Notes under the pieces: model-generated
Databases searched by the model: none
Seen by the model: the letters and a program-made list of their open reading frames with translations, nothing else
Told to the model about the DNA's origin: nothing
Source of the DNA: Candidatus Thorarchaeota archaeon
Lineage (GTDB): Archaea; Asgardarchaeota; Thorarchaeia; Thorarchaeales; Thorarchaeaceae
Assembly (NCBI GenBank): GCA_018335335.1
Contig: JAGXKG010000018.1
Location: 1 to 37,304, forward strand
DNA: 37,304 nt
Reading direction: 5' to 3'
Part shown: piece by piece, positions 29,831 to 37,304 of the stretch
Layout of the letters: every line of letters starts with the position of its first letter
Position numbering within the stretch: the stretch's first letter is position 1
Made by a program: the position numbers and the translations under genes

Positions 29831-30847
29831 TTGTCCCGTCTTGATGATATCGTGGACATGCTGCTATCATTCAACGGTATCTCTCGAAAATTCGTGCTTC
29901 CCAGCATAATCAGTCGTCTTCGAAAATCTTCTTACAACGGTGATTTCCCGCATACGCTAGGTGAGGATTCAGCTGCAATAGAGACTAGCTGTGATGAATA
30001 CGTTCTCTTGACTATTGATTCCATTGTTGAAGAATTGTGTCTTTACCATCCTCGAGCAGCTGGCTTCAACGCTATTTTGGCAAATATAATGGATATCTAC
30101 GCAGCAGGGGGTAAACCCACATCACTGGCTGTTGCCTTGTCTTATTCCGATGAAGAAGTGGGCGAGGAATTACTTGAGGGACTTATTGATGGGTCACACA
30201 AGTTCAGAATCCCTCTTGTCCGAGGCCATACTAATTCGCAGTCTCAATCAACTTACGTTGTTGGATCTGCTACTGGGACCGTAGAGAAATCGAACCTATT
30301 GACAGCAGGCGGTGCTGAGTCTGGCGACTATTTGTTTCTGCTTTTCGACAAAAATGGTAAGGTCGGAGAACACTATAAGCTAGGCTGGGATTCAGTGACT
30401 GAACAAGATTCGGATGCAGTTATCCAACGCCTATCTACAATGAATCAACTTGCTGAGCTTCACTTAGTGCATGCATCCAAGGATGTGTCAACGGCTGGAA
30501 TTGTAGGGACTGCAGGCATGCTCCTGGAATATTCTGGGAAAGGAGGATACATAGACCTTGATGCAGTAGAATCGGGGATTCCTAGTATGGTTTCTCTTGA
30601 AGATTGGCTGAGGATGTATATCTCACTTGGCTTTCTGATTGCAGTGAGTCCAGAGAATCATTCCAGAGTGTCGGAAATATGCACAAAGCACGGCATGGAG
30701 CAAGCAATCGTGGGACAAGTTGATGATACTGAAACGCTTACGCTTCGGTTGGCCAATTGTGAAAAAGCGATTTTCGATTTCTCTGAGGGACCAGTCCTTA
30801 CTCCAGAAAACAGACTCCAGAATGATCGATTTTCAGAGATAGAGTGA
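29831..30847 (+). CDS. PurM-like (AIR synthase-related) protein
   Basis: The 338-aa product belongs to the PurM/SelD/HypE/ThiL superfamily of ATP-dependent enzymes. GEDSAAIE near residue 44 is the glycine/Asp ATP motif; LLTIDSIVEEL, NAILANIMDIYAAGGKPTSL (about residues 80-99) and the later GHTNSQSQSTYVVGSATGTV are family segments. It most resembles the archaeal AIR-synthase-related group that includes methanogenesis marker 2. It lacks the catalytic Cys/Sec region of SelD and the C-terminal Cys of HypE. The substrate is unknown. The TTG start has GAGAGG about 6 bases upstream. Confidence 0.8.
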   Translation: MSRLDDIVDMLLSFNGISRKFVLPSIISRLRKSSYNGDFPHTLGEDSAAIETSCDEYVLLTIDSIVEELCLYHPRAAGFNAILANIMDIYAAGGKPTSLAVALSYSDEEVGEELLEGLIDGSHKFRIPLVRGHTNSQSQSTYVVGSATGTVEKSNLLTAGGAESGDYLFLLFDKNGKVGEHYKLGWDSVTEQDSDAVIQRLSTMNQLAELHLVHASKDVSTAGIVGTAGMLLEYSGKGGYIDLDAVESGIPSMVSLEDWLRMYISLGFLIAVSPENHSRVSEICTKHGMEQAIVGQVDDTETLTLRLANCEKAIFDFSEGPVLTPENRLQNDRFSEIE

Positions 30848-30868: not shown

Positions 30869-31144
30869 ATGCCTGCGAGAGCGGAAATCATTATAATGAC
30901 ATCCGAGCTTGGCCATTCAGAAGTGACAAATTTGGCTGATAAGACATGCAGCATCGTGGGTTGTGACAAGTCCGTCAAGCGATCCTTTCCAACGAAGCGA
31001 ATAGCTAACAGTATAAGGAAGGCAGGATTAGAAATGGAAACTTCTCGCTATAGGCGTACGTATCTGTGCCGAAGGCACTGGAAAATTGTAAAAAAGGAAT
31101 TCAAAAAGAAGCGAGATGTTGAACGTCTTCGATGGGGCCCCTAA
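30869..31144 (+). CDS. Small basic protein with putative Cys/His zinc site
   Basis: The 91-aa product (82 aa from the ATG at 30896) has CSIVGC around residue 27-32 and CRRH near residue 67, a possible Cys3His zinc site, in a strongly basic background ending KKEFKKKRDVERLRWGP. Such small basic zinc proteins often bind RNA or ribosomes, but no family was recognised. It follows the PurM-like gene by 21 bases. Either ATG could be the start; the second has GCGGAA upstream. Confidence 0.7.
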   Translation: MPARAEIIIMTSELGHSEVTNLADKTCSIVGCDKSVKRSFPTKRIANSIRKAGLEMETSRYRRTYLCRRHWKIVKKEFKKKRDVERLRWGP

Positions 31145-33277: not shown

Positions 33278-33311
33278 TGAAGACACTCACTGATTTCTTG
33301 GGAGTGTGACC

Positions 33312-34706
33312 TTGCAAAACCTGATTCCCGTACATGTGGGGCTTGTAGGCCACATAGACCATGGTAAAACAGAATTGGCGAAATGTCTTAGTGACAAAGT
33401 ATTCACAGCTGGCCTTGATAAGCATCCCCAGTCAAAAAAGCGTGGAATTACAATTGATTTGGGCTTCAGCATGTTTTCTTCCGACAAATACCTTGTAACC
33501 CTTGTTGATGCTCCTGGTCATGCTGACTTGATTCGAAGTGTCGTAGCTGGTGCCAGTATTATTGATGCCGCCATTCTGACAGTTGCAGCTGATGAAGGCG
33601 TGCAGATACAGACCATTGAACATGCCACCGTCCTCAAGGCGATGGGTATAGACAAATTGTTTGTTGCCATTACGAAAACCGATCTTGTTAAAAACGACCA
33701 AGTGAAGCAGGTTTTAAGGGAGGTTAGAGGAATCGCTAAGCGATTGAAACTAGAACCAGTTGATTATATCCCTGTCTCTGCGGAAACGGGTGCTGGCATC
33801 CAGAAGATGCGTGAGATACTGTTAGATTCACTTACTCCCCCCGATCGAGAGGATGAAGGCCCCCTTCGCATACCTATAGATCACGCATTTCCTGTTACGG
33901 GTCATGGAACTGTATTGACTGGCACTATTCTTAGGGGCTCTCTATCTACTGGTGATGCAGTACAGTTGATGCCAGGCGGAAGTCGAGCAACAGTACGCAC
34001 GATTCAGACCTTCGGACAGGAACGAGATTCTGCAACCGCAGGTGATCGCGTGGGTGTGAATGCTCCAGCATTTGATCATGACAGAATTGAGCGTGGAAAC
34101 TATCTCTGTACTCCTGATAGCATGAAGACTGCAGAATCCCTTCTAATAGGGGTTGAACTCAATCCAGGGTATCAGGGCCGTATTACTGCAAGGATGGTTG
34201 TGAAGGCAACGGTTGGAATGTCGAGCGTTACTGCAGAAATCGTGCCTTTCAGAAAAATCAATGGGCGGAAAATTCCGCTAAAAGAACCTGAGAAGCGAGT
34301 CTTCGAAGCTGCGCTGTTGTTGAAGGAGAAAGTGCCTGCAGAGATAGGAAATCGTGTTTTACTCATGCGAACTGATATGCCTGTAACAAGCATGCGCATC
34401 GTTGGCTGTGGAATCATTAATGACATTGTGAGGATAGTAACACTGGACCAAGTTAGAACGAAACATGGAGAAATCAGTAGAATACGAGATGAGAACGTAC
34501 TGATAGAGGGCTTAGCCCGGACCAAAAAACGAGCACAATCATTGAAGGGGCGAACAGTTCATACTAAAAATGGAGTTAAAGGAAAAATCTTGGACTCGTT
34601 TGGAACTCGTGGTGTAGTAGTAGGGAAGTTTGATGACGAAGTCAGAATCGAGGAGGAAATTGTGTTGGAGGACCATATAGAGGAGGAACACCGTTTTGGC
34701 AGATGA
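33312..34706 (+). CDS. selB: Selenocysteine-specific elongation factor SelB (EF-Sec)
   Basis: This GTPase carries selenocysteinyl-tRNA to the ribosome at recoded UGA codons. The 464-aa product has G1 GHIDHGKT (residues 13-20), a switch I with DKHPQSKKRGITIDLGFSMF, which is the pattern separating archaeal/eukaryotic EF-Sec from EF1A and aIF2-gamma, G3 VDAPGHADL, G4 TKTD and G5 SAETGAG. Domains II and III follow, and the C-terminal part (residues about 385-464, with TKKRAQSLKGRTVHTKNGVK) is the short EF-Sec domain IV rather than the bacterial winged helices. The start is TTG 33312 with GGGAG 7 bases ahead; GTG 33306 is possible. It overlaps sepSecS by 11 bases. Confidence 0.93.
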   Translation: MQNLIPVHVGLVGHIDHGKTELAKCLSDKVFTAGLDKHPQSKKRGITIDLGFSMFSSDKYLVTLVDAPGHADLIRSVVAGASIIDAAILTVAADEGVQIQTIEHATVLKAMGIDKLFVAITKTDLVKNDQVKQVLREVRGIAKRLKLEPVDYIPVSAETGAGIQKMREILLDSLTPPDREDEGPLRIPIDHAFPVTGHGTVLTGTILRGSLSTGDAVQLMPGGSRATVRTIQTFGQERDSATAGDRVGVNAPAFDHDRIERGNYLCTPDSMKTAESLLIGVELNPGYQGRITARMVVKATVGMSSVTAEIVPFRKINGRKIPLKEPEKRVFEAALLLKEKVPAEIGNRVLLMRTDMPVTSMRIVGCGIINDIVRIVTLDQVRTKHGEISRIRDENVLIEGLARTKKRAQSLKGRTVHTKNGVKGKILDSFGTRGVVVGKFDDEVRIEEEIVLEDHIEEEHRFGR

Positions 34707-36027
34707 GCCTATTGACCGATTTGAAGCACTCATACCTGAGAACATGAAAGAACGGGGTCGAATTACACTTGAGGCATTGGTTTCACCAATTCGTGATGTA
34801 GTAAATCGAAGACAATTCCCCAAAGAACCGCTCTCAGAAGAACAGGTCGATTTACTGCTACGACTACTTTCATCAATGGATACAGACAAGGATCCAGATG
34901 CAGCAAGAGTGGGTGAACGAGAAGGAAGGACCGCCAGTCCACTGATACAAAAGTTGGCGGCAGGCTTTAATCATGGCATTGGGCGCAGTGGCCACGTGAC
35001 AGCTCCTCAGCCAAAGGCTCCGGGCGCATCTACAATGCAGAGAATAGCCAATTCTGTTGCCCTTGACGCCATTCGTGAGCTAGGGTTACCCAATGCCCGT
35101 GCTGGTTTGGTTACTCCCCTTTCTACCGGCATGACATTAGCGCTGGTATTCGGGGCCTTACGAAGGGAGATGGGCACACGAAACGTCATTTATCCACGTA
35201 TTGATCATACATCCCCGAAGCGTGCAATTCAGTTTGCAGGACTAAACGAGAAGACCATACCCACTGTTCTGGATGGAGATGCAGTTGTCCCCGACATGAA
35301 CGAATTTGAGAAGTGTCTTCAGGATGTAGAAAACGCAGCCGTCTTGGCAACAACTACATTCTTCCCCCCACGTGAATCCGATCCTATCAAACCAATTGCC
35401 AAGCTATGTCAAGAAGAACAGACCCCTCTGGTGATAAACAATGCATACGGCGTTCAGTCGAAGCGTATTATGAGCGAGATTCGTTCTGCAATTGACGCTG
35501 GCCGGGTGGATGCAGTTGTTCAGAGCAGTGACAAGAACTTCTTGGTGCCTGTTGGTGGCTCAATTCTCGTATCCCCTCGCAATGACATCATTGAACAGGC
35601 AGCTGAAACGTATGCTGGAAGAGCAACGGCAGCTCCAGTCGTTCAGACCTTGGCTGCGTTGTTAGTTCTGGGATTGGAGGGATATACCAAGTTACAGGAG
35701 ACACAGGTGAGCAATCTCAATTTTCTGGAGGATGAGATGGCTTCCATAGCTGATTCTGTTGATGAGCGTTTATTGTCGATTTGGAACCCAGTAGCTTGTG
35801 CGATGACCATTGACCGTTTTGACGCGAAAGAGCTTGGAGGTCGGCTCTATAATAGAAGGGTCACCGGTCCGCGAGCGGTACCCAAGAACGGGAAGGGCGC
35901 TTCAATAGATGATTACCCCCACAGTTACTTGGTGATGAATGCCGCCATCGGAGCATGTCGTACGGACGTCAAACAAGCGACCACTAGACTATATAAGGAA
36001 TTAACCGAATGGTTAATGAAGGGTTGA
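34696..36027 (+). CDS. sepSecS: O-phosphoseryl-tRNA(Sec):selenocysteinyl-tRNA synthase (SepSecS)
   Basis: SepSecS converts phosphoseryl-tRNA(Sec), using selenophosphate, into selenocysteinyl-tRNA. The 443-aa PLP enzyme has the family motifs REGR (residues 75-78), GRSGH (96-100), PKAPGASTMQRI, LSTGMTLAL and the PLP lysine Lys280 in VVQSSDKNFLVPVGGSI, plus NNAYGVQS (249-255). The size is normal. Starting from a TTG, it is preceded by AGGAGG, 9 bases away, inside the end of selB, so translation is coupled. It confirms the archaeal/eukaryotic Sec route rather than bacterial SelA. Confidence 0.95.
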   Translation: MADEPIDRFEALIPENMKERGRITLEALVSPIRDVVNRRQFPKEPLSEEQVDLLLRLLSSMDTDKDPDAARVGEREGRTASPLIQKLAAGFNHGIGRSGHVTAPQPKAPGASTMQRIANSVALDAIRELGLPNARAGLVTPLSTGMTLALVFGALRREMGTRNVIYPRIDHTSPKRAIQFAGLNEKTIPTVLDGDAVVPDMNEFEKCLQDVENAAVLATTTFFPPRESDPIKPIAKLCQEEQTPLVINNAYGVQSKRIMSEIRSAIDAGRVDAVVQSSDKNFLVPVGGSILVSPRNDIIEQAAETYAGRATAAPVVQTLAALLVLGLEGYTKLQETQVSNLNFLEDEMASIADSVDERLLSIWNPVACAMTIDRFDAKELGGRLYNRRVTGPRAVPKNGKGASIDDYPHSYLVMNAAIGACRTDVKQATTRLYKELTEWLMKG

Positions 36028-36041
36028 AGGAGGCTTCTCCT
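36028..36041 (+). promoter_or_regulatory. Small hairpin enclosing the ribosome binding site of the third Sec-operon gene
   Basis: Directly after the sepSecS stop, AGGAG (36028-36032) and CTCCT (36037-36041) form a 5-bp stem with a GCTT loop just before the ATG at 36044. The stem covers the only AGGAGG ribosome binding site, so pairing would lower initiation until ribosomes leaving sepSecS open it. Coupling is inferred. Confidence 0.35.
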
Positions 36042-36043
36042 AT

Positions 36044-36694
36044 ATGGAAGACTTGGAAAATCAGCCTAAGGTCAAGCGGACCATAACCTATGATCGTCCA
36101 CAATCCTCAACAATATTCAGGATTTCCTGGTACGCAATCGGTTTGAAACCCGGGGCGATGCTGAACGAATACAGTGAGGGAGAGGGCAAGCTGTTCAAGG
36201 GCAAGGCCATGTTTACTGTTCCTCTAGATGATACTAAGACGCAGGTTCGTTTGTGGGTGGAAGAAGCTCAGCGCTCTATCGAATTGACAGCTTGGGGTCC
36301 CGATAAGGAGATGTTGAATGACTACCTAGATGAAGTTGTTTCACGTTTGGAGACCTACATCGACAAGTACTCGGAGCTATCTAATGAAAATCGACAGAAA
36401 GTCCGCCGGGCACTAGTTGCAAAAACATGTTGGGACCGTGTGGTCTACGAGATTCTGAATAAGGCGCCACTTAGTTCCATCTATGTTCAAGTAGCTCATG
36501 GCAGAGAAATGATGATCAAAGCAACCGAGGGCGAGGATATTCATCCACTTGCTTTGACTACAAGCGGATGGTTGACAAAAATCGAAGAACTTCCTCAAGA
36601 TGAGCCTCCGCCATCAGATATTGCAGAGAACCTTGCCAAGAAAACAGTAGAATGGAAGAAAGAAACTCACGGAGTCATAGGAAACTATCTCTAG
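36044..36694 (+). CDS. Unknown protein encoded in the Sec operon
   Basis: The 216-aa product begins MEDLENQPKVKRTITYDRPQ. Its N-terminal half is strand-rich (STIFRISWYAIGLKPGAML, KAMFTVPLDDTKTQVRLWVE), followed by a long helix around residues 85-130 (LNDYLDEVVSRLETYIDKYS) and a C-terminal mixed region with SSIYVQVAHGREMMIKATEG. No domain was recognised: no P-loop (so not PSTK), no L7Ae/SBP2 motif. It follows sepSecS by 16 bases and precedes tRNA-Sec, so a role in Sec synthesis, tRNA handling or SECIS reading is suggested by position alone. Confidence 0.75.
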   Translation: MEDLENQPKVKRTITYDRPQSSTIFRISWYAIGLKPGAMLNEYSEGEGKLFKGKAMFTVPLDDTKTQVRLWVEEAQRSIELTAWGPDKEMLNDYLDEVVSRLETYIDKYSELSNENRQKVRRALVAKTCWDRVVYEILNKAPLSSIYVQVAHGREMMIKATEGEDIHPLALTTSGWLTKIEELPQDEPPPSDIAENLAKKTVEWKKETHGVIGNYL

Positions 36695-36789: not shown

Positions 36790-36881
36790 GGCCCCCTCTA
36801 GGGACGGTGGACTGTCCCCGTGGGCTTCAAACCCATGAGTTCGATATGAACTAAGAGTTCGATTCTCTGGGGGGGCCGCCA
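36790..36881 (+). tRNA. tRNA-Sec (anticodon UCA)
   Basis: The sequence folds as an archaeal selenocysteine tRNA. The acceptor stem has 9 bp (36790-36798 with 36869-36877, one G-U pair). The D stem has 7 bp (36801-36807 with 36812-36818) with a 4-base TGGA loop. The anticodon stem has 5 bp plus a possible C-G pair, and the loop is CTTCAAA with anticodon TCA at 36827-36829. A long variable arm (AGTTC-GATAT-GAACT, 36838-36852) follows, then a 4-bp T stem (AGAG/CTCT) and a 7-base loop TTCGATT. The discriminator is G at 36878 and CCA (36879-36881) is encoded. The 9+4 form and 7-bp D stem are specific to archaeal tRNA-Sec. Confidence 0.95.
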
Positions 36882-36918: not shown

Positions 36919-37304
36919 ATGAGAACCGAAGGAACCAGAAATCCTCGTGACAGCTATTCACCTTTTGACAGACTGGCTGAGAGATATGATTCCTGGTTTG
37001 AAGAAGCTGGCCACTAATTTTTTCTACTGAAGTCAGGGCTTTCAGAATGCTTCTTCCAATGTTACCTGAACCATGGCTTGAAGTAGGGGTCGGAAGCGGA
37101 CGTTTTGCTCGTGCATTGGGAATTGAAGTTGGTATTGATCCCTCTAGGGAATTACTCGAGATGGCGAAACAAAGGGACATTAATATCGCTCTTGCACGGG
37201 GCGAGGATGGGGTATTCATGAATGGAAGCTTTGGCACCGTGTTTTTGATTGTCACTATCTGCTTTTTGGAGAATCCCATGAAAGTGTTAACCGAAATCAA
37301 CCGA
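36919..37304 (+). pseudogene. SAM-dependent methyltransferase gene with apparent frameshift, partial
   Basis: From the ATG at 36919 the frame reads MRTEGTRNPRD, then FDRLAERYDSWFEEAGH and stops at TAA (37015). The continuation typical of class I methyltransferases is in a different frame immediately after: LIFSTEVRAFRMLLP, LEVGVGSGRFARALGIEVG (SAM-binding motif I) and DPSRELLEMAKQRDI, still open at base 37304. One missing base near 37011-37014 (a C in GGCCAC) would join them as one protein. This may be a sequencing error, a true pseudogene, or a recoded gene. The stop is TAA, so selenocysteine is not the explanation. The C-terminus lies outside the window. Confidence 0.7.

Follow-up and report, generated by a model that had tools for sequence, protein, structure and literature searches.

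Which protein is encoded by the gene that lies between those of SepSecS and tRNA-Sec in this thorarchaeal contig, and does it belong to the machinery that decodes selenocysteine (Sec)? Archaea have been said to require a SECIS-binding factor that nobody has yet identified, and a lokiarchaeal SECIS alone is stated to fail in Methanococcus maripaludis (PMC11881835). A preliminary description of the window, by which we mean the whole stretch of 37,304 nucleotides that was analyzed, put the gene forward from its position as an unrecognized candidate for that missing factor, the archaeal counterpart of SBP2. Here we show that the gene belongs to a family already named for the Sec system, that it follows SepSecS in distant Asgard groups, and that it persists in genomes devoid of working Sec genes, and we argue from its predicted fold that the product may be a protein adaptor.

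The gene arrangement that had been described was confirmed. The 216-aa ORF starts with ATG and occupies 36044-36694 of the forward strand; the SepSecS stop codon lies at 36025-36027 and the ATG at 36044, leaving a gap of 16 bases, and tRNA-Sec (anticodon TCA, 36790-36881, forward strand) is found 95 bases 3' of the ORF. The features on which the argument depends are the following:

36044..36694, forward strand: gene of the Sel_Asgard family, 216 aa (NF045535.1, E 3.8e-69)
36068..36376, forward strand: N-terminal domain, residues 9-111, beta-alpha-beta4-alpha, with a predicted adaptin-appendage-platform/TBP-like fold (AlphaFold2 model; VIA-align)
36383..36682, forward strand: C-terminal four-helix bundle, residues 114-213, predicted to resemble the VPS28 C-terminal domain (VIA-align; Foldseek; intermediate homologue)
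36028..36041, forward strand: ribosome binding site within a 5-bp hairpin, the hairpin not conserved (window sequence; comparison of loci)
34696..36027, forward strand: SepSecS, O-phosphoseryl-tRNA(Sec) selenium transferase, the conserved upstream neighbor (TIGR03531, 441.2 bits, cut-off 224.85)
33306..34706, forward strand: SelB/EFSec, which opens the same gene run (PF21440 aSelB_III; TIGR00475)
36790..36881, forward strand: tRNA-Sec (TCA) (RF01852, 57.1 bits, gathering score 47)
30923..31144, forward strand: small basic C-x4-C...C-x2-H zinc-finger protein, 73 aa from a GTG start, ORF open from 30869, the proposed partner

The hairpin said to close the ribosome binding site does exist, with five base pairs (36028-36032 with 36037-36041) that enclose the site and begin right after the SepSecS stop. 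We looked for it in 32 loci, namely the window, L025 and 30 others that are named, and saw it only in the window and a same-genus relative; we therefore rejected the idea that it is a regulatory feature under conservation. Many of these loci do have a GGAGG-type site. Further along the operon, a convergent kinase that we read as PSTK lies 3' of the gene in 25 of 43 clustered neighborhood loci. The PSTK family search gave no match over the cut-off; we took matches with E values of 1e-40 to 1e-54 for PSTK and anything weaker for a different kinase. The contig appears to stop where the window does, which the length of locus L001 fits. The stretch that follows tRNA-Sec (37047-37304) holds the start of a methyltransferase-like ORF, as judged by eye, cut by the window end, and no PSTK gene was seen there, although one would be expected. 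On the other side of the operon, the window encodes an AIRS-family protein (29831-30847) whose nearest models, methanogenesis marker 2 and sll0787, both score below cut-off and whose match to SelD is weak; in 27 of the 43 clustered loci relatives of it are encoded close to Sec genes, and a similar-looking ORF comes after SepSecS in L083.

The gene is not unrecognized, as had been supposed. Its product matches the NCBIfam family NF045535 (Sel_Asgard, "putative selenocysteine system protein") with 232.5 bits against a curated cut-off of 132 (E 3.8e-69), that is, 100 bits above it; this score, together with the presence of the family in 144 of 227 Asgard genomes, establishes the ORF as a real gene. 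Moreover, the Discussion of PMC11227280 reports an Asgard-exclusive hypothetical protein of unknown function, MBD3157761.1, often near secS, efSec and pstk. We infer that it is a member of the same family, matching it by that description and not by accession, and since the description fits, co-location with Sec genes has to be regarded as prior knowledge. The NCBI name comes without a fold or mechanism, and neither the fold nor members from Sec-less genomes, which the present data reveal, are mentioned in that Discussion; to that extent, both the fold and the independence from Sec are new. Searches by other routes were unproductive: the Pfam scan of the window protein found nothing (best DivIVA, E 0.14), sequence searches of the PDB with the protein and with the family profile gave nothing useful, no paper was found under the family name or for Asgard with Vps28 and UFL1, and none of those listed for selenocysteine with Vps28 was relevant by its title and the opening of its abstract. 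The restriction to Asgard archaea agrees with a partial test in which NF045535 matched none of 14 control genomes, and a narrow search pattern yielded 32 confirmed contig loci, all in records labeled Thorarchaeota, Lokiarchaeota or "archaeon" (2). The named loci among these, together with the name of the family, are also the basis on which the phylum is taken to be Asgard.

The linkage of this family to the Sec system is strong and at the same time incomplete. Of the 227 Asgard genomes, 126 carry the gene over the cut-off, 130 carry SepSecS over the cut-off and 118 carry SelB domain III; SepSecS or SelB is present in 137 when strong SepSecS matches and contig-end fragments (G148, G158, G222, G225) are counted. 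With kinship ignored, SepSecS or SelB domain III accompanies the over-cut-off gene in 115 of the 126 genomes. In 109 of the 118 tabulated genomes with both genes, Sel_Asgard follows SepSecS on the same strand at a distance of under 400 nt, and this order spans eight family-level groups (f1, f2, f14, f15, f19, f20, f21 and f24). The whole region is syntenic within the Thorarchaeota, so we rejected the recurrence of neighbors there as a sign of functional linkage and relied on the distant families instead. A weak second family match in genomes of f16-f18 was left uncounted; in G082, the single case read, it is a 132-aa protein that consists of the helical bundle only and is encoded away from Sec genes.

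Homologues are not confined to Sec genomes, as those of a Sec-specific factor would be: 11 of the 126 have neither SepSecS nor SelB, and G225 retains only fused fragments. Conversely, no match reaches the cut-off in 22 of the 137 Sec genomes; a weak one is present in 11 of them, some lie at contig ends, and several in f1 and f20 are uninformative because SepSecS itself is at a contig end. The four genomes of f27 (G175-G178) have SepSecS, three of them have SelB, and none gives even a weak Sel_Asgard match; in G177, listed as 100% complete, the SepSecS region (locus L084) has no such gene. This family, Sec-using with a high-scoring SelB domain III, may use a different SECIS reader. A further locus, seen in the complete chromosome CP070761 (L069) and in L087 (G185, apparently the same genome), has intact SelB and SepSecS genes and a Sel gene that matches family positions 2-140 only; tRNA-Sec was not found in this locus, and the partial gene may reflect a sequencing error or early Sec decay.

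Retention of the gene after loss of Sec is documented within the window's own family. In G199, G209 and G225 the Sel_Asgard gene is intact and the Sec genes are deleted or decayed. L089 (G209) has lost SelB and retains only a short, frameshifted piece of SepSecS, yet its Sel_Asgard gene is intact together with the ribosome binding site; at L090 (G225) SelB residues 3-102 are fused into SepSecS residues 317-435; at L092 (G199) neither gene stands beside Sel_Asgard. None of the three genomes has SelB domain III or a tRNA-Sec above the Rfam gathering score, the only tRNA-Sec matches counted since all 14 control genomes give weak ones, and PSTK was not found or gave a weak kinase match, apart from a short PSTK-like piece in L090. 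The frameshifted remnant, the deletion fusion and the clean removal look like independent stages in the loss of the Sec operon within a single archaeal family, and in another of its genomes, G203, Sel_Asgard is missing along with the Sec genes. In G209 and G225 Sec may have been lost only lately, and the gene there has perhaps not had time to decay. In f12, the gene is over the cut-off in all eight genomes and strong SepSecS, SelB and over-cut-off tRNA-Sec in none, and three same-genus pairs give dN of 0.07-0.09 and dS of 1.4-2.1 (dN/dS about 0.05), which indicates strong purifying selection without Sec. G174, a single contig of 98% completeness, likewise keeps the gene without Sec. The expectation in the preliminary description that wide occurrence in archaea lacking Sec would speak against a Sec role is therefore borne out in part, within the Asgard genomes, and f27 adds Sec use without the gene. 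The homologues of f12, f26 and f4 share 17-24% identity with the window protein, a divergence that could go with a different function; the tree, which omits 4 of 27 rows (near-duplicates and one fragment), gives these Sec-less forms no firm branching place.

Structure prediction, proposed earlier as a check, gave a confident AlphaFold2 model (pLDDT 93.3, pTM 0.90) from 32 aligned sequences; L069, with its truncated gene, was the one of 32 named loci omitted from the alignment. The model has a beta-alpha-beta4-alpha domain at residues 9-111 followed by four helices at 114-213. In VIA-align comparisons of the predicted model, the best match of the bundle is the VPS28 C-terminal domain (2j9w_A, Z 13.2, rmsd 2.5, 100 of 101 residues), helical bundles at times reaching Z 13 by chance, and the N-domain ties between the AP2 beta2 appendage (2iv9_A, Z 10.6), a Bet v 1-like protein (1vjh_A, Z 10.8) and others. 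Foldseek pairs the bundle with VPS28-C at a probability of 1.00 and an E value of 0.099, and no Foldseek match falls under E 0.001. None of 19 family members matches VPS28 or adaptin directly in Pfam (E<=1), and the model has no Ig-like sandwich before the platform, as just 8 residues precede the first strand.

The connection to VPS28 is made by an intermediate. The family model also matches the C-terminus of 784-793-aa proteins in other Asgard genomes (L032:680-3061, L033 and L034:198-2552), which combine tandem PCI, E3_UFM1_ligase and DDRGK-type winged helices with a C-terminal VPS28-like domain. Their C-termini match Pfam VPS28 (E 4.7e-9 in L034 and 1.4e-5 in L032) as well as NF045535 across both domains (E 3.8e-13 and 6.7e-11), and a profile comparison of the 19 family members with the three large-protein C-termini gave a probability of 98.4 and an E value of 5.2e-15 over 195 columns, again covering both domains; the VPS28 part of L034 (residues 683-780) aligns to the helical bundle of the window protein. 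The large proteins may themselves be relatives of the UFMylation E3 scaffold. Sel_Asgard shares a predicted four-helix bundle with the C-terminal domain of the ESCRT-I protein VPS28, to which it is linked by way of the large protein, whereas it has neither a direct Pfam match to VPS28 nor the VPS28 N-terminal part, and no ESCRT gene was recognized beside it in the loci inspected by eye. Asgard proteins that combine Vps28-C with an adaptin appendage, longin, wH/PCI and other domains have been described (PMC10936438). Like these, the window protein carries a predicted Vps28-C-like bundle behind an appendage-like domain; unlike them, as they are presented there, it is a stand-alone protein of 216 aa without wH, Ig-like or zinc-ribbon parts, and it looks like a stand-alone cut of proteins of this type. 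Six residues (F25, D131, Y147, R154, E155 and K205) never vary across the 19 aligned members, of which 15 are Sec-linked and 4 come from Sec-less genomes, and the D, Y, RE and K set is absent from the large PCI/UFL1-like protein in the alignment.

A second gene travels with the family. A basic protein of 73-91 aa with the C-x4-C...C-x2-H pattern, encoded in the window at 30923-31144, is found in 25 of the 43 clustered loci and in 148 of the 227 Asgard genomes; the window copy has no Pfam or NCBIfam family over the cut-off. Among 132 of the 144 Sel genomes (the other 12 having weak or fragmentary matches), the zinc gene is on the same contig in 93, on a different contig in 25 and absent in 14. 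Typing covered 135 of the 148 zinc genomes, the other 13 (G041-G053) having no Sel match, and distances in f1 (31 genomes) and f20 (40) were taken for the best 14 of each, that is, the smallest. Where both genes share a contig, they are directly adjacent, 18-100 nt apart, in f4 (2/2), f12 (8/8), f21 (4/4) and f26 (1/1); the gap is 1.6-1.7 kb in f2, f14 and f24, and the exceptions are f13 (15 kb) and f19 (60 and 696 kb). Since f4, f12 and f26 are Sec-less, the linkage of the two genes is independent of Sec. A further 30 genomes encode the zinc protein with no Sel gene counted. It bears a faint resemblance to the SAP30 zinc finger, both in sequence (E 0.026 and 0.02) and in Foldseek, where weak matches of this kind rank first and third. 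Eukaryotic VPS28-C binds a zinc finger of the ESCRT-II protein Vps36 (PMC10936438), and by this analogy the Sel_Asgard bundle probably holds the zinc-finger protein.

Taking these lines together, we suggest that an Asgard adaptor was borrowed by the Sec operon and has both a scaffold role in the Sec system and a second role, an account that we consider about evenly poised between right and wrong. Profile comparison and predicted fold show Sel_Asgard to be a homologue of the C-terminal part of large PCI/UFL1-like Asgard proteins of the ESCRT-accessory kind. It would be an adaptor of two domains, with the appendage-platform-like one in front of the VPS28-C-like helical bundle. Judging from gene linkage, it would be part of an older module with the small basic zinc-finger protein, to which we infer that it binds physically. 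In Sec-making lineages, where gene order indicates that it is encoded with SepSecS, it would most likely serve as a protein scaffold around SepSecS, Sec-tRNA or SelB and not as an RNA-binding SECIS reader. A second job outside the Sec system would explain why the gene survives the loss of Sec. Unless there is some link to Sec, it is difficult to see why the operon with SepSecS is conserved across distant groups, and unless there is a second role, why the gene outlives Sec; the simplest account, at roughly even chances, is an adaptor that has the two together.

The same survival could mean that the gene has a housekeeping or trafficking-type function, plays no part in the Sec system, and follows SepSecS as the legacy of an old operon. 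Its adjacency to the zinc gene in place of Sec genes in f12, f4 and G174, and the identity of the invariant residues with and without Sec, fit this reading. However, the gene has stayed next to SepSecS in 109 of 118 genomes and eight family-level groups although the positions of SelB and of the zinc gene have shifted, and Sec genes accompany it in 115 of 126 over-cut-off genomes, kinship ignored; we regard a purely housekeeping function as a serious contender that is nevertheless somewhat unlikely. More doubtful is the original suggestion of a missing Asgard SECIS reader, functionally equivalent to SBP2, that alone or with the zinc protein would bridge SECIS RNA to SelB. The need for such a factor in archaea (PMC11881835), the tight linkage and co-occurrence with SepSecS, and the strongly basic, weakly SAP30-finger-like nature of the proposed partner all speak for it. 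Against it, the gene is intact in genomes without a working SelB, SepSecS or tRNA-Sec and absent from Sec-using f27, including G177; no L7Ae, in line with the motif reading of the preliminary description, and no other RNA-binding family appears in the Pfam and NCBIfam scans (E<=1), and the predicted domains resemble protein-protein interaction modules. The likeness to SBP2 and the L7Ae family is confined to the hypothesized role in Sec decoding, the predicted fold being another one, so that while the link to Sec genes stands, the idea of an SBP2 counterpart has no support beyond location and is improbable. An accessory enzyme or ligand-binding protein, in which a Bet v 1/helix-grip domain would bind a small molecule such as a selenium species, is very improbable. 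The N-domain does fit Bet v 1-like folds no worse than appendage folds, but the helical bundle is the more conserved part (mean information 2.33 bits vs 1.91) and no N-domain Cys or His is among the 30 most conserved positions.

Returning to the adaptor with two roles, the Sel_Asgard gene is, among the unexplained genes found here, the one best linked to the Asgard Sec system; the predicted fold, the probable partner and the genomes in which nature has removed Sec now put testable claims in place of a mere name. A bolder version, which we think has a small chance of being correct, is that the ESCRT/UFL1-type appendage and VPS28-C module formed, with the basic SAP30-like zinc protein, an ancestral Asgard translation-linked complex that was recruited to Sec decoding and bridges SECIS RNA, SelB and the ribosome. 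If true, such a complex would connect recoding with trafficking-type machinery close to the origin of the eukaryotes. The family itself may need a broader label than "selenocysteine system protein".
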